Origin: Pseudoscleropodium purum
Taxonomy: Eukaryota > Streptophyta > Bryopsida > Hypnales > Brachytheciaceae
Reading direction: 5' to 3'
DNA length: 64,000 bases
Assembly (NCBI GenBank): GCA_963969395.1
Contig: OZ017801.1
Location: 21,705,611-21,769,610, forward strand
In this document: positions 5,057 to 63,622 of the stretch, one piece after another
Numbering within the stretch: the stretch's first letter is position 1
Layout: the number at the start of each line of letters is the position of its first letter
Notes under the pieces: model-generated
Database searches by the model: none
The model's input: the letters and a program-made list of their open reading frames with translations, nothing else
Told to the model about the DNA's origin: nothing
Translations under genes and position numbers: made by a program

Positions 5057-5994
5057 TTAACCCGTAAGAGTCCCTAGCATGTTGGGTTTAAAAACATGAT
5101 GATTGCTTTTGAAGTGTTATAGGTCTAAATGTCTTTAAGGTATAGAAATCTTAACTAATCAATCTTGCAATGTAAGTGTTGTAGATGATGTGAATCAAAT
5201 TTGGAGTCATTTGCCCTCATAAATTGCAAGATTATAATGTTTTATTGTTGAAAATGGATGCTGAAATTTTTCTAGCAACACATTAGAGGTGAAATTTGAT
5301 TTTTTGAACCTACTCAAATGAGAAGACTTTAAACTATAAAAGTACTTTAGAATTAGCATATAAACACATTGGTGAAAGAAAATATCATCCAAATGATTCA
5401 TTGTGTTTGCAAAATGGCTTTGAAGTGTCATAGTAGCATAAGAAATTGCAAAAAAGTCATCTTAAATTGATCCTCCTATTGAATTGCTTGCTTCTTAGAC
5501 ATTCATAACTACTTGGATTTATACAAAAAATTTACCACAAAATAAACTAGTATGTGTAACTTTTCCAAAAACATTTTTCGAAACAAACTGCCAAAGTTCA
5601 TTGTAATCCCAAAATGTTTAGATTTTGAACTTCGAATGTCTTCTAAACATTCCAAAAGTGGATTGATATAAAAAATTTATTGCAATAGCTAAACTCTAAG
5701 AGGAATCTAACCCAACAAATTTTATTGAAAACAAACATTAGATGGAGATAAAAGCCCCCCAAGTTGTAGCCATCAAATTGTAGTTTGGTGAATTCAAATT
5801 GAACCCATGAACTTCAAGTAGCTCCCAAAAAATCAATACATCATGGATTGATATGAAAATTTTACCACAAACTAGAAAAAAGAGTAAAGATTTTACAACA
5901 AGTTCTATTAAATTCAAACATCAAATGCAAAAGTTACAACACTTTAAATTGAAGTTCAAAACTATATAGACACTCTTGGTCACTTAGGGGTTAA
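5057..5994. mobile_element. TTAA-bounded non-autonomous element (divergent subfamily)
   Basis: The segment begins TTAACCCGTAAGAG and ends CTTAGGGGTTAA, so it has the same termini as the other TTAA-bounded elements in the window. Its interior is largely different from the 12241, 16703 and 29433 copies. It is AT-rich and has no transposase frame. The identical TTAA on both sides fits a four-base target duplication. It lies about 200 bp downstream of the TCAIM-like gene. Confidence 0.6.
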
Positions 5995-12240: not shown

Positions 12241-12510
12241 TTAACCCCTAAAGCACTAAACTGCATTTTTTGGCAATGTAGTGATTTTGGATAGCTTACT
12301 ACAAGCAGAATTTTTATTTTATTTTCTTGAAATTTTCACACAACATTTTCCCAAGGAGTAGCTTCAAGGCCCAAAAATTTTCAGAACTTTTGATCTCATG
12401 GTTAAAAAGTTATTGCATGATAAGTCATTTCATTGCTCGGTGGACAGTCCAAAAGTTTCTTTTGAAATTTCTTTTTTTAGAAATAAAAATTTGAAATTGA
12501 TATTCAAGAT

Positions 12511-12582
<72 letters not shown>

Positions 12583-13214
12583 AATCATTCTATTTTGATT
12601 AATGAGATGAAAGTTATGAGGAGTTTTACTTTGCAGATAGTTATGGAATCTCTACTCTCAAATAAACTTTGAAGTCCTTTATTTAACTCAATTTCAAAAT
12701 TTTTGAAAAAAGGAAAAACATTGGGTGTAGATTTTTTATTACAACATTACAACCATTGAGATTGGCATTTTTCAATTTTATAATTATATTCATATCAACT
12801 TAGTGTTTTGAATCATTTTCTACTTTTTTCTACTTACTATTTTCCTATATGTTTTACAATTCTAAATGATTTGAAAATTTTTAAGAATGCAGCCAACTTG
12901 CTTTAAAGAATGAATCCAAAGAGTAACCATCATTTTGGAAATTTTTCATACAAATGTGACCTTGTAAAGTGCAGATGCTTGGTTTTTTGTAGGGCCTAAA
13001 AAATGAATTTTGTCAATTCAAACTCTAATATCTTGTCATCTATGTGGTCAAAAATTCTGAAATTTTTTCTGTCTTTTCAAACTACTGTATGACAAGATCC
13101 AATGGCTACATGTATCCCCAAATGAATTTTTTTCTAAAATTTTATAGTTGTGTTAGTAATGGCAGTTTTGGAGCATTCTTGATGAAAACATAGTCAAAAA
13201 TCTTTAGGGGTTAA
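12241..13214 (+). mobile_element. TTAA-bounded non-autonomous element, copy A
   Basis: It starts TTAACCCCTAAAG and ends CTTTAGGGGTTAA, a perfect 13-bp terminal inverted repeat that includes the TTAA target. Internal blocks shared with the copies at 16703, 29433, 30746 (inverted), 61350 and 61641 (inverted) include GCATTTTTTGGCAA near the left end, GAGATGAAAGTTATGAGGAG in the middle and TTTTTCATACAAATGTGACC toward the right. A TG microsatellite has expanded inside it. No transposase frame is present. Confidence 0.75.
12521..12579. repeat. (TG)n microsatellite
   Basis: An uninterrupted TG dinucleotide run of about 58 bases, preceded by a short TA run, inside element A. Confidence 0.95.
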
Positions 13215-16702: not shown

Positions 16703-17376
16703 TTACCCCCTAAAGAACCAAGCTAAGTTTTTCTGGCAACATAGCAATTTTGGATAGCTCACTACAAATGGAATTTTTATTTTTTTCTTTAAAATTTTCA
16801 TACGTCATAGAAACGAGGATTTTCTTTATAGCCCAACAATTTTCTTAACCTTTGACTACATAAATAAAATAATTAATTTATGATATGTAGTTTTTTCCAT
16901 AGGCCAAGCAATCGGAATAGATAAAAAAATCATTCTTTTAGTAACAAAAATTTGAAATTGGGTTTTTAGATTTATACATGCATTAAAAGCTTTGACTCAT
17001 TCTATTTTAATTGATGAGATGAAAGTTATGAGGAGTTTTAGTTTATACGTAGTTATGGATCTTCTACTCTAAAGAAGCTTGCACCACCATTTTGGATATT
17101 TTTTCATACAAGTGTGACCTTGTGAAGTGCAATTGCCTAGTAGTTTTAGCAGGGCCCCAAAAAGGATTTTGTCAACTTCAAACACTAATATTTTGCAATC
17201 TACATGATAGAAATTTCTAAAAAATCCTCCACATCTTTTCAAACCAGCATACTACAAGATACTATAGTTACATATACCCAAAAATATTTTTTTTCCTAAA
17301 ATTTGGTACTTGAACTAGAAATGGCAATTTTGGAGCATTTTTGGTGAAAACATAGTCAAGGAACTTTAGGGGTTAA
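16703..17376 (+). mobile_element. TTAA-bounded non-autonomous element, copy B (internally deleted)
   Basis: The right end is CTTTAGGGGTTAA and the left end TTACCCCCTAAAG, with one base of the TTAA changed. Internal blocks follow the same order as in copy A, but the copy is about 300 bp shorter, mainly lacking sequence between the GATGAAAGTTATGAGG and TTTTTCATACAAGTGTGACC blocks. Confidence 0.7.
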
Positions 17377-29432: not shown

Positions 29433-30357
29433 TTAACCCTTCAAAAATCAAGTTGCATTTTAACAACATAGTGATTTGGGGTAGCTTACTACAATTGGAA
29501 TTTTTTTTCATTGGAACTTTCACACAAGAAGGGGACAAGTTTTTTTTTGAAAGGCACAACAATTATAGCTTTTGACTACATTGTTAGTTAGTTATTGTAC
29601 GATATATTTTTTTTTTCCCTAGTGGGGTAGTCCAAGCAAATTAAAAGAATCACTTTTTTCAAGAACAAAAATTTGAAATCGATTTTCTAAATTTATATAT
29701 ATGTGGAAAGCTTGAATCATTCCATTTTGATCAATGAGATGAAACTTATGAGGAGTTTTAGTTTGCGGGCAATTATAGATTCTTTATTCTAAAATAAACT
29801 TTGAAGTCCTTTATTTAACTCAATTTTCAATATTTTTTGAAAAAATAAAATCATAGGATGTAGATTGTTTACTAAAACATTAAAACCATTGGAATTGGCA
29901 TTTTTTAATTCCATAACTAAGTTCTTAACAATTTAGTATTTTGAATCATTCTTTACTTCTATCTACTTACTATTTTTTCTTATACAATATGTTGTACAAT
30001 TTCAAATGATCTGAATATTTTCGAGCATATAGCCAAGTTGCCTTGAAGAAGGAATCTTAGGAGTTGCAACCATTTTGGAAATTTTTCATACAAATGTGAC
30101 CTTGTGAAGTGCAAGTGCCTAGGTTTTCACAAGGCCAAAAAAAGGATTTTTGTCAATTCAAACACTAATATCTTGCAATCTACATGTAGGAAGTTTCTGA
30201 AATTTTTTCAACTTCTTCTCAACCTGATGTTATACAAGATCCTACGGTTGGATGTGTCCAAAAATGTTTTAAAAATAAATAATTTGATATTTGTCCTAAA
30301 ACTGGCAGTTTTGGAGTGTTTTTGGTGAAAACACAGTCAAGGAACTTTAGGGGTTAA
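29433..30357 (+). mobile_element. TTAA-bounded non-autonomous element, copy C
   Basis: Left end TTAACCCTTCAAAAATCAAG, right end CTTTAGGGGTTAA. Internal blocks align in order with copy A. Repeated at 46059-46983 by the segmental duplication, so it inserted before that event. Confidence 0.7.
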
Positions 30358-30745: not shown

Positions 30746-31665
30746 TTAACCACTAGAGTTCTTTGACTATGTTTTTGCCCAAAACTATCATTTTTTGTAC
30801 AAGTTTCAAATTTTAGAAAAGAAACATTTTTGGACACATATAACCATAGGATCTTGCAGTATACTAGTCTAAAAAGATGTGGAAAAAATTTCAGAAATTT
30901 TCACTGTATAGATTATATGATAATAGCATTTGAAGTGACAAAAATCAGTTTTTTGTCCCTACAAAAAACGAGGCAGTTGTATTTCACAAGGTCACATTTG
31001 TATGAAAAAATGTTCAAAATGGTGGTGCTTTTTTGGATTCATTCTTCAAGGCATGTTGGCTACATACTTGAAAAGTTTTAGGTCATTTGAAATTGTACAA
31101 CATATAGAAAGAAACAGTAAGTAGAAAAATTTACAAAATGATTTAAAATACTAAATTGTTAGCAATTTATTTATGGAATTGAAAAATGACAATTCCAATG
31201 GTAGTAATGTTGTAATAAAAAATCTTCATCTAATATTTTATGTTTTTTTACCAAAATATTGAAAATTGATTTCAATAAAAGACTTCAAAGTTTATTTTGA
31301 AGTAGAGAATCTATAACTATTTGCAAACTAAAGGACCTCCTAAATTTTGACTAATTGATCAAAATGGAATGATTTTAAGATTTTTATGTGTATATAAATC
31401 TAGAAAACCAATTTAAAATTTGAATTAAAAAAAATGATATTTTTAGATATGTCCTAACTGCCCAAGTTAAAAAACAAACTACATATTAGGTCATAACTTT
31501 TGAATAATATTTCCAAATGTCTTGAAATTTAGGGCACATGAAATATATGCTTCATCTACACCTTCTATTAAAATTTGGGAAACAAATATAGAAATATTTA
31601 GTCACATGCACCTGCCCAAAATTTCTATATTGCCAAAAAATGCAACTTGGTCCTTTAGGGGTTAA
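30746..31665 (-). mobile_element. TTAA-bounded non-autonomous element, copy D (inverted)
   Basis: It starts TTAACCACTAGAG and ends CCTTTAGGGGTTAA. Read on the minus strand it matches copy C block by block, for example ATGCAACTTGGTCC at the right end here against the left end of C. Repeated at 47372-48291. Confidence 0.7.
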
Positions 31666-32634
31666 TTAGCTCATAATTGCAAACTTTAGCCTCTTTAAAA
31701 TAAAGGTGGTGAAACAAAGTATTATGTTATCAATATTTTTAACAATCCACTTTCTACTACATTTTAGAAATTTGATGAATGATGTAATAGACCTTATGGA
31801 AATCTACTATATAAATTACAAGTTTGTTATCAAATTGGATAGAATTTAATTTGATAACTTTCCCAAAGTACCACCACGGGATATTTATAAAATTTTGGAA
31901 TGACTTTTTGGAATGGATGTTGAAATTGCCTTCTTTAAAATGCTAATTTTAATACCCCCAAGTTATATAACTTATATCTTCTTGAAATACAACCTTCCCC
32001 CAAAACTATAATATTGCAACAACTTCTTCTAAAAATTTGAAGATTGCATGAGATATATACAAAGGACACTCCTAATTCTATAGATAAGAATTAATTTTAG
32101 AAAAATAAACTCCAAAGCTTGCACTATTCCATATTAAAATTTAGTTAGAAATCATTCTTTAAACTTAGCTTTAACATTCAAGAAATACTTCTATAGTATA
32201 TTTGAACTCTCTATTATATTTGTTGGAGGCATTTACATACATTCATTTTGACTTAAAGATTAGTGTTGCTATTTTGCAACACAAATTATTAGCACTCATA
32301 AGAGAGACCTACATATTTTGAGCAAAAGTGTACAAAATAACTAAAACATATATAATAAAAAAGGAGAAATGATAAATATAAATTAATTTATCTAAAAATG
32401 TAAATTAAAAAAATAGAGATAAAAAAGGAAATTAAATAAAAGTAGGCCTCATTGGGATTTACCCACCCCTTGAGGGCCCTTACTTTTCATAATTTCTTCT
32501 TCCCTGGACATTGCTATGTATAAAATCAATCAAACATATCGATGAAATAACAACTACAAGTAGAGAAATACAAATATCAATCCATTGTTGTATCTCAAAT
32601 TCTCCCTCGATACATTTTTAGATCAAATAGAAAC
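31666..32634. other. 3' flank of SABATH gene 1
   Basis: This flank is shared by the array: related sequence lies at 48292-49260 and, more diverged, at about 55130-55898, and in two pieces at 59400-59900 and 63165-63622. It contains no gene and presumably holds the SABATH 3' UTR near 32634. Confidence 0.5.
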
Positions 32635-34859: not shown

Positions 34860-34861
34860 AG

Positions 34862-35288
34862 CTGTAACAGCTCCCGCAAATGCAATTCGATAGTTCTGCA
34901 AACTATTTCGAAGCTACGGTGAAACTTAGGAAAGCAGATACCCGATTACTACGAACAGCTCATTTGAAGCGAATGGAAGAACGCCTGCCATTATTGTGCA
35001 GTTACCGCGTTCACACACGGCAAGGGAAAATCTTGATACCCCCAACTGAAGTAATACAGCATCTTGGCCCGTCTACTCCGTAAAATACTTCGATTTGTGT
35101 GGCTGCACGTTTTATATATATTTCTGAAAAAGCGAGCATCTCTGCATGACTTCGAATCTCTAAAAGCTGTGGAAATGCCGGTTGCGCAAGTAAAAGACCA
35201 CTTTCGTCTGACCCTTCCTTAAAAAGACGTTCTAGAATACCCTAAACACTTGTCACACTATCCGTATTGTCTCACATTGAAACCCATA
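34862..35288. promoter_or_regulatory. Upstream region of SABATH 1 and duplication junction
   Basis: The first about 45 bases are related to the leaders of SABATH 2 and 3. From about 34935 the sequence instead matches 58565-58665, far upstream of SABATH 3 (shared AGAACGCCTGCCATT), so about 600 bp appear to be missing here. The stretch ends at the junction with the truncated X copy (CCCATACAGAATG), where CCAT is shared with the copy 1 sequence. Confidence 0.5.
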
Positions 35289-41635: not shown

Positions 41636-41640
41636 TTCCC

Positions 41641-44600: not shown

Positions 44601-44783
44601 TTTTCTTAAAAATTCACAATAATTTCAAATTTTTCACCAAAATATTTGAAAATTTATGACTTGCAATAAACATATGACTTCATCTTTGAAAAATAAATAT
44701 AAATCTTTTCATTCATATCTAGTTACAAAATGGTAGAAAACCAAGTTACAGACAATGGGATTTGAAATCAATGGTCATGGGCA
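41641..44783. other. Duplication copy 2: X 3' flank and spacer
   Basis: Repeats 25015-28157. No gene recognised. The frame at 41652-41864 is the copy of 25026-25238. Confidence 0.5.
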
Positions 44784-45030
44784 GAGAATTGTTATTATGT
44801 GAGCATAGGAATGTGAGCCCATGAGCTTAGAATACTATACACCTATGTTATAGGTGTATATATTATAAAAACCATCTATGATTATAAAATATATATTACA
44901 AATACCCATATTATAGGTGCTTTTAATACATACACCTTCTATATAGTGTGGTATCTATATTATAGGTGGGTATATTGTAGGTTCAATGCTCACAAGCTTG
45001 CATTTTTAGGCTCACATACTAGCACCGTTA
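44784..45030. mobile_element. MITE with 10-bp target duplication, copy 2
   Basis: Segmental copy of 28158-28404, with GTCATGGGCA again on both sides (44774-44783 and 45031-45040). Confidence 0.65.
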
Positions 45031-46058
45031 GTCATGGGCATGTCCTTCCAAGGGGTTAAGGTAGGCTTTTCCAAATTGTGTCATGCCTTTAACCCCCAAA
45101 AGGATGTTAAAGACATTGTTTGTCCTTTGCATAACTTCAAGTAGGACTATAGGATGGATAAAACATTTTGAGAATAGTTGCTTGAATGCATTTTAGTGAA
45201 TAGTATGTTGCATAGTCCTTCATTATGAAATTATTGATTTTTCTAAAGAAGATCTTTCATCACCCTTGTAGTGTGTTTTGGCCAATTCTTGTTCTTTGCT
45301 CTTGATGTGAATTTTAACCATAAAAATGATATTTTTTAAATTTGAGGCTAACTTATGAAATGAATATTTATCAAGTCTTGTTTCTATTCCAATTTGAAAA
45401 TTTGAAAAGATCTTAAACTTCAATATTTTATTGCAATTTGAACTTTGGGGCTATGAGTATGGTTTGATGATTTTGTAATTTAAAAATGACACAATGATTT
45501 TGTTTTATTTCACAATGTTATACATTACAAAATACACCTATGCTAAAAACTTCAGATTTTTTAGCATATTTTGTACTTTGTATTAGATATAAATTTTCTT
45601 CACTTTTTCCTTACAAAATTCACAGTAACTTCAAAATTTACCCATAAAAATCTAAAATTTTAGCACTTGTAGTAGCTGCATATAATTTCTTCTTTAAAAA
45701 AAAAAATAAATAAATTTCGTTTGTATTTAGATGCAAAATAGCAATAAATAAAAATAAAAATTGTAAAGCTTGAATCTATGGGTATAGGTCCTTTTGGGGT
45801 GGGTGGGTGTGTTAAGTACAATCTTTATAAAATGCTCATATTGTGCACATCTTCAAAATCAATGTGCACTTATTCTTCAAGAAATGGTTTTAGAAAATCT
45901 AATTTTTTTTTTACACTTCATAGTTTTTGTATATGGTATTGAAATGATTTTTTCTGGTGCATTAGAATCTCCTATCAATTACAAATGAAAATATATATAA
46001 ACTTCATGAATTTGGTAATAAAAATTGTCCACAATATATAGGAATCCCCTTAAAACCT
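45031..46058. other. AT-rich spacer in copy 2
   Basis: Nearly identical to 28405-29432. No gene recognised. Confidence 0.4.
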
Positions 46059-46983
46059 TTAACCCTTCAAAAATCAAGTTGCATTTTAACAACATAGTGA
46101 TTTGGGGTAGCTTACTACAATTGGAATTTTTTTTCATTGGAACTTTCACACAAGAAGGGGACAAGTTTTTTTTTGAAAGGCACAACAATTATAGCTTTTG
46201 ACTACATTGTTAGTTAGTTATTGTACGATATATTTTTTTTTTCCCTAGTGGGGTAGTCCAAGCAAATTAAAAGAATCACTTTTTTCAAGAACAAAAATTT
46301 GAAATCGATTTTCTAAATTTATATATATGTGGAAAGCTTGAATCATTCCATTTTGATCAATGAGATGAAACTTATGAGGAGTTTTAGTTTGCGGGCAATT
46401 ATAGATTCTTTATTCTAAAATAAACTTTGAAGTCCTTTATTTAACTCAATTTTCAATATTTTTTGAAAAAATAAAATCATAGGATGTAGATTGTTTACTA
46501 AAACATTAAAACCATTGGAATTGGCATTTTTTAATTCCATAACTAAGTTCTTAACAATTTAGTATTTTGAATCATTCTTTACTTCTATCTACTTACTATT
46601 TTTTCTTATACAATATGTTGTACAATTTCAAATGATCTGAATATTTTCGAGCATATAGCCAAGTTGCCTTGAAGAAGGAATCTTAGGAGTTGCAACCATT
46701 TTGGAAATTTTTCATACAAATGTGACCTTGTGAAGTGCAAGTGCCTAGGTTTTCACAAGGCCAAAAAAAGGATTTTTGTCAATTCAAACACTAATATCTT
46801 GCAATCTACATGTAGGAAGTTTCTGAAATTTTTTCAACTTCTTCTCAACCTGATGTTATACAAGATCCTACGGTTGGATGTGTCCAAAAATGTTTTAAAA
46901 ATAAATAATTTGATATTTGTCCTAAAACTGGCAGTTTTGGAGTGTTTTTGGTGAAAACACAGTCAAGGAACTTTAGGGGTTAA
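46059..46983 (+). mobile_element. TTAA-bounded element, segmental copy of C
   Basis: Same ends and interior as 29433-30357, with almost no base differences by eye. Confidence 0.7.
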
Positions 46984-47371
46984 AGAAACTACAGGATGGT
47001 GTCAACTGTGAAGGTACAATTGATTGCCCTATAGTGAATAGCTAGAACATGGATACTTTTACAGAAGTCATGAACTGTACATTCCACTCCAATTCTACAA
47101 AGAGCAAAAAAAGGCAGAATAAATTATTATAGGAAGTGAATAGAAGACTTGCCAAACCGACCTTGGATAGCCAGCAGAGGTGCTCAAAATGGTAGGGACA
47201 TATTTTTAATGGGTATTATTGCATGTGATTGGGCACACATTTTGGTCCTTATTTTAAAGAGTTTGCTTAATTTTTGGATGGAAGAACCTAATTGCAAGCA
47301 TCAAGGCTTGCTCTTCAATCATAGATTCTTTGGTTCAGATTGACTGATTATAGGTAGGAAATATGTGGTGT

Positions 47372-48291
47372 TTAACCACTAGAGTTCTTTGACTATGTTT
47401 TTGCCCAAAACTATCATTTTTTGTACAAGTTTCAAATTTTAGAAAAGAAACATTTTTGGACACATATAACCATAGGATCTTGCAGTATACTAGTCTAAAA
47501 AGATGTGGAAAAAATTTCAGAAATTTTCACTGTATAGATTATATGATAATAGCATTTGAAGTGACAAAAATCAGTTTTTTGTCCCTACAAAAAACGAGGC
47601 AGTTGTATTTCACAAGGTCACATTTGTATGAAAAAATGTTCAAAATGGTGGTGCTTTTTTGGATTCATTCTTCAAGGCATGTTGGCTACATACTTGAAAA
47701 GTTTTAGGTCATTTGAAATTGTACAACATATAGAAAGAAACAGTAAGTAGAAAAATTTACAAAATGATTTAAAATACTAAATTGTTAGCAATTTATTTAT
47801 GGAATTGAAAAATGACAATTCCAATGGTAGTAATGTTGTAATAAAAAATCTTCATCTAATATTTTATGTTTTTTTACCAAAATATTGAAAATTGATTTCA
47901 ATAAAAGACTTCAAAGTTTATTTTGAAGTAGAGAATCTATAACTATTTGCAAACTAAAGGACCTCCTAAATTTTGACTAATTGATCAAAATGGAATGATT
48001 TTAAGATTTTTATGTGTATATAAATCTAGAAAACCAATTTAAAATTTGAATTAAAAAAAATGATATTTTTAGATATGTCCTAACTGCCCAAGTTAAAAAA
48101 CAAACTACATATTAGGTCATAACTTTTGAATAATATTTCCAAATGTCTTGAAATTTAGGGCACATGAAATATATGCTTCATCTACACCTTCTATTAAAAT
48201 TTGGGAAACAAATATAGAAGTATTTAGTCACACACACCTGCCCAAAATTTCTATATTGCCAAAAAATGCAACTTGGTCCTTTAGGGGTTAA
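47372..48291 (-). mobile_element. TTAA-bounded element, segmental copy of D (inverted)
   Basis: Same ends and interior as 30746-31665, in inverted orientation to the element at 46059-46983. Confidence 0.7.
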
Positions 48292-49260
48292 TTAGCTCAT
48301 AATTGCAAACTTTAGCCTCTTTAAAATAAAGGTGGTGAAACAAAGTATTATGTTATCAATATTTTTAACAATCCACTTTCTACTACATTTTAGAAATTTG
48401 ATGAATGATGTAATAGACCTTATGGAAATCTACTATATAAATTACAAGTTTGTTATCAAATTGGATAGAATTTAATTTGATAACTTTCCCAAAGTACCAC
48501 CACGGGATATTTATAAAATTTTGGAATGACTTTTTGAAATGGATGTTGAAATTGCCTTCTTTAAAATGCTAATTTTAATACCCCCAAGTTATATAACTTA
48601 TATCTTCTTGAAATACAACCTTCCCCCAAAACTATAATATTGCAACAACTTCTTCTAAAAATTTGAAGATTGCATGAGATATATACAAAGGACACTCCTA
48701 ATTCTATGGATAAGAATTAATTTTAGGAAATAAATTCCAAAGCTTGCACTATTCCATATTAAAATTTAGTTAGAAATCATTCTTTAAACTTAGCTTTAAC
48801 ATTCAAGAAATACTTCTATAGTATATTTGAACTCTCTATTATATTTGTTGGAGGCATTTACAAACATTCATTTTGACTTAAAGATTAGTGTTGCTATTTT
48901 GCAATACAAATTATTAGCACTTATAAGAGAGACCTACATATTTTGAGCAAAAGTGTACAAAATAACTAAAACATATATAATAAAAAAGGAGAAATGATAA
49001 ATATAAATTAATTTATCTAAAAATGTAAATTAAAAAAATAGAGATAAAAAAGGAAATTTAAATAAAAGTGGGTCTCACTGGGATTTACCCACCCCTTGAG
49101 GGCCCTTACTTTTCATAATTTCTTCTTCCCTGGACATTGCTATGTATAAAATCAATCAAACATATCGATGAAATAACAACTACAAGTAGAGAAATACAAA
49201 TATCAATCCATTGTTGTATCTCAAATTCTCTCTCGATACATTTTTAGATCAAATGGAAAC
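48292..49260. other. 3' flank of SABATH gene 2
   Basis: Segmental copy of 31666-32634 with scattered substitutions. No gene. Confidence 0.45.
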
Positions 49261-51485
49261 CTATTTTCGGATCAAAATAGCCAATATGCAATCCAAGGGC
49301 AAGCTAAATACCCTTTTCTCTTGTAGAGCCTTAGTCGCATTTTTTTCCAAGCGTTCAAAAAACTCATGGCACTTCTCCTCACCAATATGCTCAACCATGA
49401 TTGAATTCAGAATGCTCCTCGTGAAATTTTTTGTGAACCGGCCATATGTCTCAGGATTAGCAAGAATTTGCTCCACTTCATTTGGCGGGAAGTAGCTTTG
49501 CCGCTTGACCTCACATAGTTTGATGTGGAAAGTATTTGTGGACTCCACAACTGCTTTCACATCATCTACGCTATATAAGTAGATTGGAACATTGAAGGTA
49601 TCCCTTCTCTCTTCTTCTATTATACCCTGCAACATTGAAACCAGTACAAAGATTGGTAAGAAAGTCACTGAAATGTGATGGACTAAATCAACCTGCTATG
49701 TATATAATGGAATTTTGTAGGCCCAAATTGAATCTCCTTTGAAGAGAAAGCGTAAGTGATTGTTGGAATATGCAAAAAGTTTTTTTGTCTAAAGAAAATT
49801 GGAAATGTGTTGAAAAGTAATGATAGCTTGTTGGTTTATATCATTCCAAAGAATAAATTTCCTTGCAAAATTTTGAAATCACAATATTATCAAACGTTTG
49901 CAAATAGGATGAGTTTGGTGAATAATATTGCTTTGATAATATACTTTGTTAGTCTCTATTTGAATTAAGGTTACGAGTTTGACAATCGTAAAATGTTCTA
50001 ACCCTAAAAATCTACTATGATTAAATATAAATAAATATGAGCAACTTATTCATTTCAATCTAAAGTAAAAGATAAGTATTAATAGTCCTTTAGCTTAAGT
50101 AACATTCACCTTTCACTAAGCAAGAATATATGACTTAATGGATAAGTAGTACTCAAGCATAGGCATCCTTCATATACCATACATAAAAAGATACATATGA
50201 AAATTATTCATTTGTTTCTATTTGGAATAGAAACAATTTCAATTAGTTGTTGTTTTTATAATGATTTAGATAAATTAGAGAATACCTCAATGACAAGTTC
50301 TTCCCATGTCGCCTCAAAGACTTTAGTATAAGGCCCTACATACTCCCCCTCCCTAGGCCATTGAACCTCTGGATGGTTACCATCCGCACGACCAGGAGCA
50401 TGAAAGAGAACAAGACCACCTGGGATGACTTCATCTGCTCGAGATAGCAAAAAATTATAAAGATCTTGCCGTGCAGTTTGTGTGAAGGCTTGCACTGTTG
50501 CAACATTCTTGTTATCATTTATCCATATTCTCCCCTTGTTGTAGGCATGCGAAGATTTGTCCAACACTACATCTGGCACCTACACAAAGGAGCAATAGCT
50601 AAATAATGCATGAAAAAGCTTGACTCAATTCAACTATAACGATTTCATTTAGCTTATCATAGTTTAAGCCATGGCCGACAATAGTTTTGACAATGGAACT
50701 ACAATTTTCAGTTACACTCATTTGTCCTACTAATGATGGGAAAAAATTAGTATCATCTAGAAGCTTAGAGTCATTTTTGTGAAAATTGGTACAATTAAGA
50801 AATATTTAAATCTAAATTGATTCAAAATAATGTGACTTTGGTAAAGAAATGTCACACACTATTAGGACAAATAGGCGTACTCTTCAGTAGTAGTTTTAAG
50901 AAAATGGCACCCACAAACTGCAAATTACGGTACCTGTGACATCCATAGAACCGCGAAGGTAGAGATTGCGACATGAAGACTTCCCCTGGGAAAGAGGCGC
51001 CTATGGAATGATCCCGCGACTGCCGTGGCATAGAAGTCCCCCATGCTCGTTTGCGTCTTCCTCCAATCCTCCAATTGAAGAAACAACGTGTTGAAATCAT
51101 TGGAAGGCAAGTCGCAGAAGAAATACTGCACTTCATCAGGAATTTTCCTCCCGTTGCTCAACCTTGCTCGACACACATTTCGGTAACAGATCTCCGCATA
51201 CCGAAGAGCATTCGGTCCCACGGAGCATCCGAAATCAGCAATACGAATCGCGCTCCCGCTCCAGTCCTTGAATAATTCGAGCTGCATAATCTCTTGCTCC
51301 AAGATCGGCTTCAAGATATTTATGGACTGAGATTGCATCGATGAGTTTCTGGTGTAGCTGAACTCTCCTGCGCCACCCGCCATCCCAGCTATGGCTCGTG
51401 CAACCTTCATCGGTTTCTCTTCGCCTCCACGCCTGGCCCTCGTCTCACCATAAACCTCACCTCCTCCAGCTGCTGCATCATCCAT
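49261..51485 (-). CDS. SABATH-family SAM-dependent methyltransferase 2, intact
   Basis: Exons are 51485-50934, 50579-50286 and 49626-49261, each exactly 16626 bp from the exons of SABATH 1, with the same GT-AG introns of 354 and 659 bp. The 403-residue product differs from SABATH 1 at two visible residues. Ala becomes Val three residues into exon 2 (PDAVLD to PDVVLD). Ala becomes Thr in exon 3 (NPEAYG to NPETYG). All six differences seen in exon 1 are synonymous. SAM-binding and pocket residues are the same as in SABATH 1, so the same type of substrate is expected. The upstream region differs from gene 1 and instead resembles that of the pseudogene at 57932, so the two intact genes could differ in expression even though the enzymes are almost the same. 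Confidence 0.9.
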
Positions 51486-51586
51486 AGCTCAAACAGCTCG
51501 GGTATTTGCAATTCGATAGAAGTTGCAAACTGCGTAGAGTAGAATTGAACTCATGTTAGTGTATCCTCTTTTATTTCATAACTGTC

Positions 51587-51770
51587 GAGTATGCCGAGAG
51601 TACGTTGGCGAAATTTCAAGCACATGTTCAAAACATGTTCAAAAGGTAATGTTATGCTGTACGTGTGGGGAGCTAACTGAGTATGCCGAGAGTACGTTGG
51701 CGAAATTTCAAGCACATGTTCAAAACATGTTCAAAAGGTAATTTTATGCTGTACGTATGGGGAGCTAACT
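51587..51770. repeat. 92-bp tandem duplication upstream of SABATH 2
   Basis: Units 51587-51678 and 51679-51770 are nearly identical (GAGTATGCCGAGAGTACGTT at the start of each, ending GGGGAGCTAACT), differing at about two positions. The homologous site upstream of SABATH 3 (near 58030-58100) has a single, shorter unit. The duplication lies 100-285 bp upstream of the start codon. Confidence 0.9.
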
Positions 51771-53318: not shown

Positions 53319-54124
53319 TTGGCCCCTAAATGTCTAGATCCTTCTCCAGAATTGACGATTTGGCAAAAAAACATTATGCCATAATATTTGGAAGAATATT
53401 TAGAAGTTGGTATACAAATAGAAGTTGTAGATTTTGAGTTCTACATTCCATTGTAATTCCATTGTATAGTTAGATGCACCATTGCTATGGCAAATTTTTT
53501 TTTTATTGAAAGAAAAATTTCCAAAGTCCTTTTTAAATTCAATTTCAAACATAATATTATCATTTTATAAGTGACACTTGCTAGAATGGATTTCAAATGA
53601 AGTTCTCTTGATATGATGATTTTTTAAAATTTATCTCTTTTTTAAATCTATAACTTCATTTATGCTAAACTAATTTTAAATTGAAGTCAACATAATTTTT
53701 TGCTTTTAACACTTCCACATTTGTAATTTTAGAAAAAATATAAACTCTAGTAATACCTAATCTACCATTAGATAGGACAACTTCATAAAGTATCTCCATG
53801 AAGTAGATTACCTTCATCTAGAAAAATCATGGATTATTTTTCACATTGAAAACTCTAAATTGGAAAATGCAACAAGTATATAAAATTTTTATTTTACAAA
53901 TTTTTATTTTACAAAATATTGAGATTTGTTTCACCCTACCTCAAATTTGCCATTGAAAATTTCAAGAGGACACATTGTGTGCTCTTAGACCTTGAGGATT
54001 ATGGATGATAAAAGACTTCATCAATAAATAAATTGATGGATAACTATTCACGATAGGAACAAAAAGTGGACCTATTGATTCAATAGTCGAAGCATTATGG
54101 TGACTAATGTACTCTTAGGGGTCA
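53319..54124 (+). mobile_element. TTAA-type element, subfamily H, eroded ends
   Basis: Ends are CCCCTAAATGTC on the left and ACTCTTAGGGGTCA on the right. The flanking TTAA is mutated on both sides. The interior (CTTCTCCAGAATTGACGATT near the left end) is shared with the element starting at 58771 but not with copies A-F. Confidence 0.5.
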
Positions 54125-54152
54125 TATTCTTTACAAGTAAATGTTGAGAACT

Positions 54153-55018
54153 TTAACCCTTAAACAATGCAAGCATCCAAAAAGTAGATGCGCCTTGGTC
54201 AACCTTGATTACAACTTTTAAAATAGCTACTTTTTGAATTTGATTTCAACTAAGAAAAAAAAGTTTGACGAGTTTTGTTTCTATTCCATTTTAAATTTTT
54301 GAGAAATGTCAAGAATTGAAAGAATTATTGCAATTGAAAGCTCTTTGTGTTAAAATCCATATAACATAATATGGTGTGCTTTTCATTCATATTTTATTTT
54401 TTGAAGATGTATTTTTAATTTAAAGTATACAATCATGTTTCTCATTCCACTCTTCATTTATAGTAAAAATTATAGATTATTCTAATATACAACGTAATTG
54501 GTATAATTTTATTTCCACCTTTAGCTTTGAAAAATCACAATAATTTTATTTTTCCTTCAAAATTATTGAAAAAATACAAAATAAATAGAAATTTCATTTT
54601 TCTACTAGCATAAAATATAAAAAAAATTTATATCAATTAAATAAGAAGATAAATTTGGTTTGATAGTCAAATTTGTCTTCAAGATGTTTGATGTGGCTAT
54701 TTCGGATGTAAAAAATAAAATAACCAGTAGAAAAATTTTCATGCTAATTTCCATTGCTACTTTTACCTCCCAAAAAAATTTCAAATAATTTGAATTGTTT
54801 TTGCTATTTTTACTCATTTATGTTCATTTTTTGCAATAAAAATGATAACAATTAAAAATTTCCACAAAACAAAGTGCAATTCCTCAAAGTCATATAAAAT
54901 TTAGAGTTTCAAGTAGTAAAAATATCAGATTGTTGTTTGAACACTATTGAAAAGGTTAAAATTAGCTCAAATAAGAAGTTTGACCATTTCACAATGGATC
55001 AAGTCCTTAAGGGGTTAA
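54153..55018. mobile_element. TTAA-bounded element, another subfamily
   Basis: Starts TTAACCCTTAAAC and ends CCTTAAGGGGTTAA; AT-rich, no coding frame. Intact TTAA on both sides. Confidence 0.5.
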
Positions 55019-55898
55019 AGTTGAACTCCTTCAAATAAAATTTAATTGTTTAGAGTGTTCAACATTTTTAGGTAGTGTTTTCAACCTTTAAAGAAAATTA
55101 TCATAACGTTTGACATCTTTCCAATAAATTTTTTTTTCTTAAAATCATAAGTTTGATTAGGAGCTTCTCGTTAACGACAACATTCTATTGGACACTTCAG
55201 GCCAACGAAAAGAAACTCTATGTTTCAAAAATCAAGTAAGCAACAAAATAAACTCTAGCCGTCTTGCTGAACGAATTGTCATCAGAGGATTAGTGTGTTT
55301 GCAGTCTGTTCAACCGGTAACTACAAATACACAGAATAACTAGAATATATACAATGAAAAAGGAGAAAAGATAACTACTGTAAAAATGAGTCAATTCATT
55401 ATTCCAAAAAAATTCAGAGATAAAAACTGAACAATATTTTATTTAAAAGTAACTTAAAATAAATTTGGGGCTCATATGGATACACCTACTTTTAGAACCC
55501 TAATTTTTCATAATTTCCCCTCCATTGGATGTTGTTCAGTACAAAATCACCTCAACATTCATACCTTAAATGAAGTTGTTTGTTTGTTTGTTTGTTATGG
55601 TGAGATCTTTTGGAATTTGGACTATATGTCATTTGATTGCATTCTTGGTACCAATAAAAAGCCCTTTGCAAGGAAGTGTGCATGGACTTTGTTTCATAGT
55701 TTTCCAACTCAAGAAAGGAAATATATTGAATTTATTTTGAAGTTTTTATGATTTGAATAGTTAGTAAATTACTTTTATTTTTATTATGTAATACTCTGTC
55801 AATGGCACAAGGAATACTAGTATCAATGAAATCCAACCACAAGTAGAGAAATGCAAATAATTATTGATCCTTTGTTTTGTCTCCAATTCTTCCTAAAT
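55019..55898. other. 3' flank of SABATH pseudogene 3
   Basis: From about 55130 the sequence is diverged array flank related to 32250-32634, with a roughly 240-bp insertion at about 55570-55810 of unknown origin that carries a (TTTG)n tract. No gene. Confidence 0.45.
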
Positions 55899-57932
55899 CT
55901 ATTTTTGAATCAAAATGGCCAATATGCAATCTGTAGGCAAGCAAGACACCTTCTTCTCTTGCACAACCATAGCAACATTCTCTCCAAGTGTTCAAAAAAC
56001 TTACGACACTTCTCCTCACTAATATGCTCTATCATGATTGGATTCACAAGGCTCCTAGTGAAATTTTTTGTGAACCGACCATATGCCTCAGGATCAGCAA
56101 GAATCTACTACACTTCATTTGGTGGGAAGTAGCTTTGCCGCTTGATCTCACATTGTTCGATGTAGAAAGCATTTGTGGACTCTATGACTACTATCACATC
56201 ATCTACGCTAAGATAGTATATTAGAACATTGAAGGTATGTCTTCTTTCTCCTTCTATTATACCCTGCAACATTAAAATCTCTCCAAAGATTTGTAAGAAA
56301 GTCATTGAAATGTAATGGACTAGATCACCCCATTGGCCCTTTGGGCACAAGGTGTAACTTTGCTAGCTCAAAATCTCTTCATTGAGTCTTTTCCAAGAGA
56401 AAAAGCTAAGTAATTCTTAGAACATGCAAAAAAATTTGGTGTCCAGAAAAAAATTGGAAATGTATTGAAAGTAGTGATAGCATGTTGATTACAATCATTC
56501 CAAAGAACAAACTTCCCATAGATCCTTGAAGTCATAATATCATTAAAATCATGCAAATGGAACGATTTTGGTAATTAAAACAATATTACTCAAATAAATA
56601 TAACTTGTTAGTCTCTATTTGCTTTAAGGTTAAGAGTTTGACAATTATAGAATGTTCAACCTCTAGCCATCCACTACAAAAGATTATATGGGAAGAAATA
56701 TGAAGAAATTCTATATTTCAATTTGAAGTAAAAGATTGGCATTGACATCCCTTTAGCCTAAGTAAGACTCACCCTTCACCAAGCAACAATATATTGATCA
56801 TTGGCATTCTTTATATACCGTTCATGAAAAGAAACATATGAAAAGTATTCATTTATTCAAACTTGTGGTAGACACAATTGCAATTAGCTATTTTTTTGAG
56901 ATTGACTTGAGTAAACTAAGGAATACCTCAATAACGAGTTCTTCCCACGTTGCCTCAAAGACTTTAGTAAAGGACCTTGCATACTCCCCCTCCCTAGGCC
57001 ATTGATTCTCTGAATGACAGTCATCCACACAAGTAGGAGCGTAAAAGAGAACAAGACCACCGAGGACAATTTCATTTGCTTGAGATAGCAAAAAATTATG
57101 AAGATCTTGCCTCACAGTTTGAGTGAAGGCCTGCACTGTTGCAACATTCTTGTTATCATGTATCCACACTCTCCCCTTGTTATGAGCCGGTGAAGATTTG
57201 TGCAACACCGCATCAGGCACCTGGACAATGGAGTAGTAGCCACACAATGCATGAGAAAGCTTGACTCAGTCCACTGCAATGATTTCGTTCAGCTTGTCAT
57301 ACTGCATGCAGTGAACAGCAGTAATTTTGACAGTGGAACTACACTTCCCAGTTACACAAACTGCAAGTAACGTTACCTGTGACATCCACTGAATCGCGAA
57401 GACAGAGATTGCGACATGCAGACTTCCCTTGGAAAAGAGGCGTCTGTAAAACGATCCCGCGACTGCCGTGACATACAAATCCTCCATGCTCGCTTGCGTT
57501 TTTCTCCAGTCCTCCAATTGAAGGAACAGAGTGTTGAAATCATTAGCAGGCAAGTCACAGAAGAAATACTGCAACTCATCAGGAAATGTCCTCCCATTGC
57601 TCAACCTTGCTCGGCACACACTTTGGTAACAGATCGATATCTGCATATCCAAGAGCATTCGCTCCCACGGAGCATCCGAAATTAGCCATACGAATTGTGC
57701 TCCCGCTCCAGTCCTTGAATAATTCGAGCTGCATAATCTCTTGCTCCAAGATCGGCTTCAAGATATTTATGGATTGAGATTGCAACGATGAGTTTCTGGT
57801 GTAGCTGAACTCTCCTGCGCCTCCCGCCATCCCAGCTATGGTTCGTGCAACCTTCATCGTTTTCTCTTCGCCTCCACGCCTGGCCCTCGTCTCACCATAA
57901 ACCTCACCTCCGCCAGCTGCTGCATCATCCAT
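55899..57932 (-). pseudogene. SABATH methyltransferase 3, pseudogene
   Basis: Exon remnants are 57932-57377, 57220-56927 and 56263-55899, with the same splice sites as the intact genes. Exon 1 is 556 nt instead of 552: four extra bases within 57630-57643 (in GATCGATATC) shift the frame after motif I. The SAM motif itself is altered, reading MANFGCSVGANAL, with Asn for the conserved acidic residue and Ala for Pro. Exon 3 has two TAG codons in a row (56105-56110) where the intact genes have Glu-Gln, and a later frame change near 55980. Exon 2 remains open over its full 98 codons. The number of lesions argues against a sequencing error. Many substitutions separate it from genes 1 and 2, so it is an older duplicate. 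Confidence 0.88.
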
Positions 57933-58770
57933 AGCTCAAACAGCTCACGCAATTGCAATTCGATAGTGCTGCAAACTACAGTAGAACTCATATTAGTACG
58001 TACATCCCCTCTTATTGCATAACTGTCACAAGTATGCTGAGAGTAGATTGGCCCAATTTCAAGTACATGTTCATAAAGGTAACTTAATGCCCTACATATA
58101 GGGATCTAACTTTGACTCCGTGCATATGGAAAAGAAATGGGCTTCTGTTCCAACAAGAACACGTATCATTGTATCTAGCTTGCCTGTGTGAATGGGGTAG
58201 CCTTTCATTTTACGCAATTATTTCTTCATGCACTGGCAATCAGTTTTGCCATCCAACTTTACCCTTTGAAGGCATGTTGACAAGTGAGTTGATCCTATAG
58301 TAATACTCCAAACTCTCAATAAGACATGTACTTGGATGGACTTAAATAAACCGAGGCTCTGTAAATGCATATCCTCTCTGTGGAGACCTAACTGAACCAT
58401 CAGTCCCAGCACCATGCATCACGAAGACAAGTTCTACTTTTTACGGAAGCAATGGTGTCATTCTTGTCCATCTAATTCTACTGCAATTCCTGAGGAAATT
58501 GTCCTCCTGCTCATGCAACATGGTGACAAGAACCAGAGTATGCGGAATCAATGAGTCAGAGTGTCAATTAAAAGAGCAGATACTTGGTTGGTATGAACAG
58601 CTCATGTGAAGGAGAAAGAACGCCTGCCATTAATTGATGTGCAGCTACCTCGTTTGCACAGGGCACAAGAGTATCATGATATCACCAAGGTACTGCCCTT
58701 CTGTAAAGCTTCTCTTTGTCGGTGCTACAAGTTTTATGAATGTCTCTTGAAAATATACATATATTTCAGA
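57933..58770. promoter_or_regulatory. Upstream region of SABATH pseudogene 3
   Basis: 57933-58330 aligns with the upstream region of SABATH 2 (51486-52020), and 58565-58690 aligns with the far part of the SABATH 1 upstream region (34935-35060). It therefore keeps the most complete version of the ancestral 5' flank. Confidence 0.6.
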
Positions 58771-59290: not shown

Positions 59291-59900
59291 TCCAAGCAAG
59301 AATGAAAAAGAATAATGGTTTTTAATTTTTTCATTGTTCAAAAATTGGATGTTGGAGCACTTCAATGTTAGGTGATCGTAGTTGGGAAATGTGTTGTGTT
59401 TAATCAGGCTTATAATTACAAACTCTAGGTTCTTGAAAATAAAGATGGTTATTGGAAACATCGATACTTTTAATAGTTCACTTTCCACTACATTTTAGAA
59501 ATTTGATTAATCGTGTGTTGGACCTTACAAAAATCTACTTTGTAAATTACAGGTTTGTTATCAAATTAAATAGAACCTAATTCTTCTTGCCCAAAGTACC
59601 ACTATGGGACATATATTCAATTTTAGAATGACTTTTTGGAATGGTGTTGAAATTAACTTCTTTGGCAAGCCAATTTTAATATTTTCAAATAAAATAATTT
59701 GTATATTTTTTAAATACAACCTTCCCACCAAAATATAAATGTTGCAACAACTTGCTATGAAAAATTGAAGATTGTATGAGATATGTGAGAATGGAGCTTC
59801 TACATCCACATGCTAAAAATCAATTTGAGAAAATAGGCTTATAGGCTTACACTATTCTTTCTTAGAATTGAGGTAGAATTTTTTTTCTTAGACTTTAGCT
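59291..59900. other. Array flank of the fourth SABATH unit, first piece
   Basis: From about 59400 the sequence is related to 31670-32170 (CACTACATTTTAGAAATTTG and AGTACCACTATGGGACATAT resemble that flank). It belongs to the fourth unit and is separated from the rest by the elements at 59901 and 61350. Confidence 0.55.
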
Positions 59901-61290
59901 ATAACCTCTAAATGCCCAAAGCCTTTTTTGAGCTTCTTGGAAATTTCTCTAAATTGATCAAAACACCAACATTTTGATAAGTTTTATGAATTTGCTTTGA
60001 ATTGTAACTATACAAATTCAAACTAGACACATTAGAGATCATGTGAGAAAAGAAAATACAACAATATTACTTATGGATTGAAAGATTATAATGTTTGATG
60101 ATGAGGGTAATACAATTACAAAAGTAATTTGAAGTCTTTCAATCCTCTTTTCTCATGTCAAATCTAAAAAAATGGTCACCAAAAGAATATGAAGTTAAAG
60201 GGCATAACATACATAAATCATTCAATTTATGTCTTCTCAAGGATGAATGCAAGAAAGATTGGTCCTTTTTGGGTCACATTTGAAATTTTTGAGTTGTCAA
60301 TTTGTCATCAACAATAACTTCTGCACATTGAGGTGGATGTACTTGAATTTTTTTAAAGATTAGTAATTAGACATTCATTAAAAAACTTATTTTTCAGAAA
60401 ATTTCAAAAATCATTTTATATTTAAATTTAAATTTAGCTAATTTGTCACACTCTATGGTTTAGGAATTTTTAGTATTGGGGGCTCTCCAAAATTAATGAT
60501 TTAGAGCTGAAATTTATGTAGGCTATTCCTATACTTGAGAGGCATGTACCCATGGTTTGTTTTTTTAAAAACATTATTTTATATCCTCTACATTTATACA
60601 CTCAAGGCTCCCTTGTGCACGCAATTTTGAACATTGAAAATAGTTTCAAGGTGATTCTTTTGGTGAATTCTCTTTACCATGAAGTCTTTCCAAACGTCCA
60701 ATTTTAATTTTCTTTAAAAAAGAATTCCTATTTTTACAAATTAAAATGTCAAAGTATTTATTTTCATGAGATTTTTTACTTTTCTAGTTTTCCTACTTAG
60801 AAATTTTTTTCTATGCTTTTCTTTCCTAAAGTACGTTCTTCTTAAAGGTGTATCTATTAAACATATTTTTTTACATTTTCTTAAAAAAAAACTTTTAATT
60901 ATAAAGTACTCTATAAAAAATCACAAGTATTGTAGGAATTGCTATACAAAACAATCAATCTTTCTTGCATTCACCCTCAAAATCTATTCTAAATTTTTTT
61001 TAAATGTATTTCAAATGTGATTATTTTTTTTATGATCTAGTGTATTTGAGGCTTATTTCTAAGAGTCTTCAATATTAGAAAATTGAGATTTGCAATGGCC
61101 TCCCTTGCAAAAAAATCTTTAATAAAATATCATGATCATTCATTTTCAAAATTGGAATTTGATGTTTAAATTAGACTTCAAAAGGAATTTTTTGTAATTA
61201 TAAACTACTCAAATTAACAACTTGGTAAGGTAATTTGACTTCAAAGTTTTATCAACACTAGAATTGGGTGCCTCAGGCATTAAAGATTAA
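59901..61290. mobile_element. Possible TTAA-type element interrupting the array flank
   Basis: This 1.39-kb segment is absent from the corresponding place in units 1 and 2 (near 32170). Its ends, CCTCTAAATGCC on the left and GGCATTAAAGATTAA on the right, are imperfect inverted repeats resembling the TTAA family. The interior is AT-rich and unique in the window. Confidence 0.35.
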
Positions 61291-61349: not shown

Positions 61350-63164
61350 TTAACCTTTAAAGGACCAAATTGCTTTTTTGGCAACATAGTGATTTTGGGC
61401 AGCTTACTATGAATGGAATTTTTAATTTTTTTTCTTTGGAATTCTCATACAATATGAAGATGAGTTTTTTCTTTAAGGCCCAATAATTTTTGACTATATG
61501 GTTTAAAATTATTGTATAATATGTATTTTCTTTTACACCAAATAGTTGGGGAAGTGAAAAAAAATCTTTTTTCTTAGAAATAAAATTTGAAACTTGTTTC
61601 TAGATCTATATGTAAGAAGAAATCTTCTAATTGTTCCATTTTAACCCATAAAGTTCCTTGACTATGTTTTCACCAAAAACTCTCCAAAACTGCCATTTTT
61701 AGGACAAGTATCCAAAAAAAATTTTAATTTTTTTTGGACACATCCAACCATAGGATCCTGAATTATGATCATTTGAAAAGATGTGGAAAAAATTTCAAAA
61801 ATTTCCACCGTGTAGATTGCAAGATATTAGCATTTAAAGTGACAAAAAGCCTTTTTTGGCCCTGTAAAAAAACGGGCAGCTGCACTTCACAAGGTCACAT
61901 TTGTATGAAAAAATGTCCAAAATGGTTGCAACTCTTTGGATTCATTCTTCAAGTCAAGTTGGCTACATGCTTAAAAAATTTCAGACTATTTAGAATTGTA
62001 CAACACATAGGGAAAAAATAGTAAGTAGAAAGAAGTAGAAAATGAATCAAAAAACTAAATTGTTAATAATTTAGTTATGGAATTGAAAAATTCCAATTCC
62101 AATGGTTGCAATGTTTTAATAAACAAACTTCACCTTAAATTTTTATTTTTTTCCAAAAATATTTAAAATTGAGTTCAATAAAGAACTTCAAAGTTTATTT
62201 TGGAGTAGAGAATCATTAATTGCCCACAAACTAAAGCACCTCATAACTTTTGACTCATTAATCAAAATGGAATAATTCAAATCTTTCTTTATATATATAT
62301 ATCTAAAAATTTAATTTCAAAATTTAATTTTGAAAAAAATATTTTTTTCAGATCTGCCCGGACTCCCTAAGTTGAGAAACAAACTACATATTAGGCCATA
62401 ACTTTTGACTCATATTTCCAAATGTCTTGAAATTTGTGGACGTGAAAGATATTCCTTGTTCACACCTTCTATTAAAATTTGGGCCTAAAATATGGAAATC
62501 TCCACCCACATGCACCTGCCCAAAAAAGTTATGTTGCCAAAAAACACACATTGATCCTTTAGGGGTTAATTAATGAAATGAAAGTTATGAGGAATTTTGA
62601 TTTGTGGGTAGTTATGGATTCTCTACTCTAAAATAAATTTGAAGTTATTTATTAAACTCAATCTTCAATATTTGAAAATGAAATAAAATCATACAATGTA
62701 GGTTGTTTATTACAATGTTACAACCATTGGGATTGTCATTTTTCAATTCCATAATTAATTCCAAAAAATTTAGTATTTTGAATAATTTACTACTTCTTTC
62801 TACTTACTATTTTTTTTCCTATATGTTGTACAATTCCAATTGATTTGAATTTTTTTTCAAGCATGTAGCCAATTTGCTTTGAAGAATAAATCCAAAGAAG
62901 CACCACCATTTGGGATATTTTTTCATACAAATGTGACCTTGTGAAGGGTAGTTGCTTTGTTTTTTAGGACCTAAAAAGGATTTTTGTCAATTCAAACACT
63001 AATATCTTGCAAAAAAATTTGCAACTTTTTTTTTGCAACTTCTAAAACTTGTATATAACATCATCCTTTCGATATATGTATCTGAAAATATTTTCTAAGA
63101 AAAAATTTGGAACTTGTACTAAAAATGACATTTTTGGAGCATTTTTGATGAAAACATAGTCAAG
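61350..63164 (+). mobile_element. TTAA-bounded element, copy E, split by copy F
   Basis: The left part 61350-61640 starts TTAACCTTTAAAGGACC. The right part resumes at 62570 with TTAATGAAATGAAAGTTATG and runs to about 63164, where the terminal AGGGGTTAA has been lost. The unit 4 flank resumes after it (GGATTTGAGGGCATTG, cf. 32225). Removing F restores the normal order of blocks. Confidence 0.7.
61641..62569 (-). mobile_element. TTAA-bounded element, copy F, nested inside E
   Basis: Starts TTAACCCATAAAG and ends CCTTTAGGGGTTAA, inverted relative to E. At the same place the uninterrupted copy B reads CTATTTTAATTGATGAGATG. Here the host reads CCATTTTAA before the insert and TTAATTAATGAAATG at its end, so TTAA is the duplicated target. 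Confidence 0.8.
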
Positions 63165-63622
63165 TAAGTTTTGGATTTGAGGGCATTGATACATTTGTGT
63201 TGACTCAAAAACTAGAATTGCTATTTTAGAAGACAAATTATTAGCACTTTTAGGGGAAGACCTATTTGTTTAAAGTAAAAATACATAAAATAACTAGATC
63301 ATATACAATGAAAAAGGAAAAGTGATAACTATTGCAAAATGAGCCAATGCATTTACCCAAAAATGGTGATTCAAAAAATTTTAAGATAAAAAATGATTAG
63401 TTTGTTTTAAAAGATAACCTAAAAAAGAAGTCAAGGCTTGTTTGGATTTGTCTACACTTAGAAACCCTATTCTTCATAATTTTCTCTTCACTGGACATTG
63501 CCATATATAAAATTACTCAAACATATCAATAAAATACCAATTATAAGTAGAGATTTACAAATATCGATTCAACTCATTTGTCTCAAATTCTCTTTGGATC
63601 TATTTTATGGACAAACAAAAAT
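63165..63622. other. Array flank of the fourth SABATH unit, second piece
   Basis: Diverged counterpart of 32225-32634 (for example CAAATTATTAGCACT). No gene. Confidence 0.5.

Follow-up and report, generated by a model that had tools for sequence, protein, structure and literature searches.

The short, TTAA-flanked repeats that populate this part of the genome of the moss Pseudoscleropodium purum are, we are highly confident, non-autonomous, MITE-like members of the piggyBac superfamily (~0.92 kb, with no coding content found), an established type of element that here occurs in large numbers and in a host where it was not expected. The piggyBac superfamily, source of a major genome-engineering transposon, is familiar chiefly from animals and has seldom been reported in land plants, for which repeat annotation usually works with the classes CACTA, hAT, Mutator, Harbinger and mariner and does not seek piggyBac. 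An initial annotation of the 64,000-nucleotide stretch analysed here (the window) had taken one copy nested in another as proof of TTAA duplication, and had proposed a piggyBac-like non-autonomous family in a plant. The host is indeed a plant, and the superfamily assignment is supported by ends that the family has in common with elements encoding the PF13843 transposase; the argument from nesting, as discussed below, needed replacing.

Six independent copies of the short family (A-F) lie in the window, accompanied by two (C2, 46059..46983, minus strand, and D2, 47372..48291, plus strand) that duplicate C and D within a 99.3% identical segmentally duplicated block and are not independent. Copy F (61641..62569, plus strand) is an intact non-autonomous element in which 921 bp (CCCATAAAG...CTTTAGGGG, 61645-62565; start TTAACCCATAAAGTTCC, end CTTTAGGGGTTAA) are enclosed by TTAA at 61641-61644 and at 62566-62569. 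As first noted, F lies inside, and interrupts, copy E (61350..63180, minus strand), relative to which its orientation is inverted. Copy E begins with TTAA at 61350, this end reading TTAA + CCTTTAAAGG; its far end, previously placed at 63164, is identified by alignment as the decayed TTGA at 63177-63180. The remaining copies are A (12241..13214, minus strand; 966 bp, TTAA at both ends, with a CA microsatellite expansion), B (16703..17376, minus strand; internally deleted, with ends TTAA/TTAC), C (29433..30357, minus strand; TTAA at both ends) and D (30746..31665, plus strand; TTAA at both ends). Pairwise identity among the six independent copies is 66-77%, counting in 40 bp of flank per side, and their twelve outer ends read TTAA in ten cases, TTAC in one and TTGA in one. 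The family consensus measures 932 bp including both TTAA, and has 28% G+C; the stretch repeated exactly in inverted form at its two ends, CCCCTAAAG, spans 9 bp just inside TTAA, and beyond it matches are scattered. The window has 11 occurrences of the motif TTAACCCCTAA, of which 2 fall in the duplicated block; the expected number is 0.10, and none of 60 Markov-simulated sequences had more than 1. None of the comparison motifs TTAAGGG, TTAACAC, TTAACAG, TTAAGAG and TTAATGG is enriched there. Consistent with the non-autonomous character originally attributed to the family, no Pfam match was found in the three forward frames of copy F, and the longest open stretch of the consensus in any frame is 91 residues.

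Empty sites within the window bear directly on the target. When F is removed and its flanks are joined at a single TTAA, copy E reads CCATTTTAATTAATGAAATG, and the two uninterrupted copies that serve as empty-site references, A (CTATTTTGATTAATGAGATG) and B (CTATTTTAATTGATGAGATG), have a matching stretch equal in length to joined E; the comparison with copy B made in the initial annotation thus holds. For copy D the empty site is kept in a paralogous block at 59400..59403, as a single TTAA in ...GTGTTTAATCAGG, the flanks matching between the paralogous blocks except for a one-base gap nearby. The probable empty site for E, also in a paralogous block (32223..32226), is the weaker case because it now reads TTGG. 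Empty sites, whose collection across the genome had been proposed, were gathered in the window, where the tally is therefore two sites with one TTAA (F and D) and one mutated site (E).

Taken alone, the nested pair F/E indicates a target that contained TTAA and a gain of 4 bp. It does not prove TTAA duplication, and the earlier claim to that effect was overstated, because TTAA is palindromic and a TA duplication flanking an ACCC...GGGT element gives identical letters: CCCC...GGGG within TTAA and ACCCC...GGGGT within TA can be told apart only by whether the outermost T and A vary freely. Tc1/mariner-type (Stowaway-like) elements, which combine TA duplication with ACCCC...GGGGT ends, would accordingly read the same at the nested insertion and at every TTAA-flanked copy.

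A count across the genome (313,191,705 bases in 52 contigs, the window lying on C45) replaces this ambiguity. Counting single ends, rather than the end pairs that had been suggested, and including other families with the same nine bases, TTAACCCCTAAAG occurs 3,972 + 3,873 = 7,845 times as a perfect end (backwards control 10 + 4 = 14), whilst VTAACCCCTAAAG, i.e. the same end with any other first base, occurs 196 + 225 = 421 times (backwards control 9 + 13). The outermost base is hence T at 7,845/8,266 ends (94.9%), compared with a base rate in the window of 30% for T before TA at 5,151 TA sites, from which we conclude that the target is TTAA; on this point, on which the empty sites of F and D agree, the initial annotation was right. 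Were the duplication TA, the base outside it would be free and T would be expected at ~30%, so that the TA model is refuted by the count of outermost T unless base context is biased far beyond that of the window. Since, furthermore, the transposase encoded by elements with related ends is of the PF13843 type (see below), a Tc1/mariner-type identity is vanishingly unlikely. The TTAACCCCTAAAG ends come from more than one family, the bases after CCCCTAAAG being of several types in the sampled loci. In 20 stretches sampled around genome sites, all 40 of the profile matches that reach a profile end stop at TTAA, a sample that is not an independent test because the stretches were chosen by end pattern and aligned with a profile containing TTAA. 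The end pattern had no match in the viral and prokaryotic contigs. At L016:1519-1540 (C1:3081018-3081039) a single TTAA (CTTTAGGGGTTAACCCCTAAAG) serves two ends arranged back to back, the pattern expected if one element inserted into a TTAA that another had duplicated.

The same genome contains a piggyBac transposase. Matches to PF13843 (DDE_Tnp_1_7) number at least 117, a lower bound given that 116 of 512 first-look candidates were scored; all are above the curated cut-off, with a best E of 2.2e-66, and none was found in 14 control genomes. In-frame stops interrupt 115 of the 117 listed matches, the remaining two being partial, and the genome yielded no autonomous copy that is intact. Among the 157 stops of the 30 best loci (L029-L058), 92 are TAG, 38 TGA and 27 TAA, and at the seven leading stop columns of the 30-locus alignment, in which two loci are on the wrong strand, the other copies mostly have CAA/CAG or TGG. 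This bias to TAG, often at glutamine and tryptophan codons, suggests C-to-T decay, perhaps linked to CHG methylation. A conserved in-frame TGA was considered and rejected, no column of the same alignment (30 loci, two wrong-strand) having a conserved stop. No transposase remnants were detected in the window with a profile built from 118 animal-type piggyBac proteins (best E 0.23).

When the translation of one of these loci (L035, its one stop written as X) was searched against 5.8 billion proteins at E <= 1e-8, 102 relatives were obtained, all with PF13843 and all from raw or metagenome assemblies. The closest of them, P0241 (73% identical, 646 residues), matches the PDB structures of piggyBat (1.1e-25) and piggyBac (2.9e-23) and keeps all three catalytic aspartates. 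Across the 102 aligned relatives, counting those with a residue at the position, these aspartates are kept in 77/79 (D268), 83/91 (D346) and 77/79 (D447). The PF13842 zinc domain was unreported for P0241, P0257, P0270 and L035; the C-terminal tail of P0241 is cysteine-rich.

The 5' end of the extended transposase elements is homologous to one end of the short family. Within +-1.5 kb of the 30 best transposase loci a short-family end was absent at 29/30, the exception being L051, whose 5' side carries TTAACCCCTAAAGTCCC and ~220 bp homologous to one short-family end. Seven of these 30 loci (of at least 117 in all), belonging to one transposase clade and chosen for similarity to L051, were extended: L051, L035, L053, L058, L039, L037 and L033, which with their flanks are denoted z51, z35, z53, z58, z39, z37 and z33, and all of whose transposases are decayed. 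In L035 the end block seen in L051 recurs ~3 kb ahead of the transposase. A 5'-end profile gives one match per locus in 7/7, lying ahead of the transposase and pointing outward, with E values from 3.5e-23 to 2.1e-12 in the five loci not used to build it (L053, L058, L039, L037 and L033); the initial annotation had proposed looking for a DDE_Tnp_1_7 transposase gene with the same ends, and such loci are indeed present. From the 5' end to the homologous transposase block the distance is 0.23 kb in L051 and 2.2-3.7 kb in the other six loci, for which the negative result at +-1.5 kb is explained by the long stretch that precedes the gene. The same profile matches short copies F, D and A, mostly from the first base (TTAA) to ~218, and 12 sampled loci, matches to window copies B, C and E being unreported; it is not a clean control, because it missed full short copies that the family profile found in z51 (10703-11616) and z53 (8000-8904). 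The 2.2-3.7 kb stretch itself, present in six of the seven elements (L033, L035, L037, L039, L053 and L058), has almost no BLAST homology among them apart from short matches of z35 to z33 and to z58; it could represent an intron, a leader sequence or an additional gene.

The opposite ends are likewise related. A recognisable 3' end is present in 6/7 loci, reading TTAACCCCTAAA in z39, z58, z53 and z51, CTAACCCCTAAAG in z37 and TTAACCCTAAAGT in z33; z35 retains the 3' block, of which the last part was not found. The best two-ended case is z33 (C48:163873-170531), with 6,659 bp between two TTAA, in which the 5' block corresponds to 711-931 of the family profile (E 4.6e-16) and the 3' block to 4-383 (E 1.9e-47), both at TTAA and in the order and orientation of the two ends of the short family. 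Both ends were also found in z39 (6,720 bp), z37 (6,520 bp), z53 (6,748 bp, holding the short element at 8000-8904), z58 (7,883 bp) and z51 (3,807 bp), these lengths carrying the reservation that two of the six measured elements contain, or may contain, insertions. Eleven of the twelve ends of these six elements start CCC, and one starts CTTC. A 3'-end profile constructed from z39, z58 and z37 matches the other half of copy F (61731-62005, E 3.1e-11), together with copies A and C and four sampled loci; no match to copy D was reported. A search with the L051 junction region gave at least 40 matches (40 of 231 candidates scored), amongst which are two more places, besides L035, where transposase and end parts lie on the same strand a few kb apart (C48:14481707 with 14484961, and C48:10144476 with 10138187). 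The middle ~340 bp of the short family was not traced to any transposase element.

Because the short family is so common (7,845 perfect ends), and because full or partial copies do occur beside or inside some of the loci (z51 and z53, at the positions given above), the transposase loci might merely adjoin truncated short-family copies, in which case the link to piggyBac would be a coincidence of crowding. We consider this very improbable. The 5'-type end is on the same side and outward-facing in 7/7 loci, and L051 and L035 are 77% identical in the end block and 79% identical in the transposase by BLAST. These two blocks are, moreover, closer to each other (72% alike over the whole block) than to the four short copies compared (49-59%). 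Finally, the 3' homology among z39, z58, z37 and z53 stops at the element ends or within 7 bases of them (7640, 9151, 7640 and 8962, where the sequence is TTAA, TTAA, CTAA and TTAA).

The TTAA target is in itself compatible with superfamilies other than piggyBac. Sola3 duplicates TTAA. Kolobok does so too, according to PMC9587614, where its ends are given as 5'-RR...YY-3' and so differ from the CC...GG ends of the short family, a comparison of ends that covers Kolobok only. Kolobok also differs in its transposase, and against both superfamilies stands the piggyBac transposase carried by the elements with related ends, such that a Kolobok or Sola3 identity is exceedingly improbable.

Assignment of the short family to piggyBac also provides a plausible origin for it. 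The family lacks a transposase, is present in high copy number and has ends in common with transposase elements, as is characteristic of MITEs; in its members, ~220 bp correspond to the 5' end of the ~6.7 kb piggyBac elements, and a second stretch of up to ~370 bp to their 3' end. Given related ends on both sides of the transposase, the short family is most likely an internal-deletion derivative of the piggyBac elements, as judged from sequence comparison. A deletion inside a ~6.7 kb element would have produced the short form, and, by the known piggyBac mechanism, transposase binding to the shared ends would have moved it in trans. The transposase would cut adjoining the CCCC ends and insertion would take place at TTAA with four-base duplication; by analogy with piggyBac (PMC7351741), excision would pass through a 4-nt TTAA hairpin intermediate and be seamless.

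Fifteen full-length short copies (11 sampled and 4 from the window) are 66-87% identical in pairwise comparison, with a median of 76%, and lie 11-21% from consensus, figures that lean to better-kept copies because those scoring below 500 bits or not reaching both ends were left out. Divergence of this order means that the bursts are old and makes present activity doubtful. We incline slightly towards the view that mosses harbour a deep piggyBac lineage of their own, consisting of large elements (~6.7 kb) and represented here by thousands of copies with deletion derivatives; as the 102 relatives of the transposase all come from raw or metagenome assemblies, such a lineage may be widespread among mosses and absent from plant repeat catalogues.

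Comparison with known members of the superfamily (Trichoplusia ni piggyBac, piggyBat and coral AmiPB) reveals the same TTAA target and duplication and the same CCC ends (PMC7351741, PMC2872659), animal piggyBac ends being mostly of CCC type (PMC10813416), together with a PF13843 transposase that has three aspartates and matches the solved piggyBac and piggyBat. However, the moss transposase elements are larger, at 6.5-7.9 kb in five of six and 3.8 kb in the sixth, than the coral elements for which a length is given (2.2-3.7 kb). The short family's exact inverted repeat of 9 bp is shorter than the 12-19 bp stated for piggyBac in PMC2872659; this is a soft criterion, since PMC10813416 gives a range of 4-24 bp with a few longer. 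The coral CMITEs described in PMC2872659 resemble the moss short family in being non-coding and TTAA-flanked, with CCC(C)T ends and an empty site, and at least one CMITE family has ends in common with a piggyBac element; they differ in length (~100 bp, against ~920 bp in the moss) and from the moss elements in that the two ends of the latter are of unlike sequence.

A general absence of piggyBac from plants, in the direction of which the initial annotation pointed, is not established, the fern Ceratopteris being credited with 1,230 PiggyBac-labelled fragments (122 kb; PMC6890710). For mosses, a Physcomitrium transposon paper describes DNA elements of mariner type (PMC7466625), and the word used in the moss paper PMC10619864 is "piggybacking"; no report of piggyBac in a moss was found in the literature searched, in which subscription journals were thinly covered, and one may exist. 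What is unusual in the present case is the abundance of the elements, the size of those with a transposase, and the derivation of their relatives from raw and metagenome assemblies. The presence of TTAA elements among the common repeats of a moss indicates that a land plant can be a favourable host for the superfamily, offers candidate plant-adapted transposases and ends, and serves as a warning that plant genomes can contain such copies by the thousand without their being annotated. The question of vertical descent from early land plants as opposed to horizontal arrival thereby becomes testable.

Other TTAA-type elements in the window, with CCCC, CCCT or CCTC ends, number at least two and perhaps six. 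Two of these, both of other families, have TTAA at both ends: G (5057..5994; TTAACCCGTAAGAGTCCC / TTAACCCCTAAGTGACC ends, 930 bp between TTAA) and L (54153..55018; TTAACCCTTAAACAATG / TTAACCCCTTAAGGACTTG ends, 858 bp between TTAA). A perfect 13-base pair at 3985/5994 was rejected as the ends of a 2 kb element, position 3985 being in a host gene region and 5057/5994 the better pair. Weaker candidate families, in which one or both flanks are decayed or one end was not located, are H (28463-29177), M (53319-54125), K (59901-61290) and a left end at 58771; K, which measures ~1.39 kb and is flanked by ATAA and TTAA, is missing from the paralogue, with borders that are less clean.

The segmental duplication that accounts for C2 and D2 comprises 25010-34893, repeated at 41636-51519 (9.9 kb, 99.3% identical, 16.6 kb away), and a Ty1/copia-type element with reverse transcriptase at 39268-40260 lies between the duplicated segments. 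SABATH-type methyltransferase genes are located at 32537-34913, 49163-51678 and 55821-57978, PF03492 being found in the first and third and the second being the 99.3% duplicate of the first; their diverged paralogous flanks are the empty-site references for D, E and K. A perfect inverted repeat of 44 bases with a 43-base loop occupies 21781-21911. Amongst the best 120 of 7,535 matches to the LIPT2-like protein encoded at 8233-9186, two from raw assemblies reach 96% and 93%, and the closest named are those of the mosses Ceratodon purpureus (82%) and Physcomitrium patens (81%), the other named plants lying at 54-66%, including Sphagnum at 66% and 60%.
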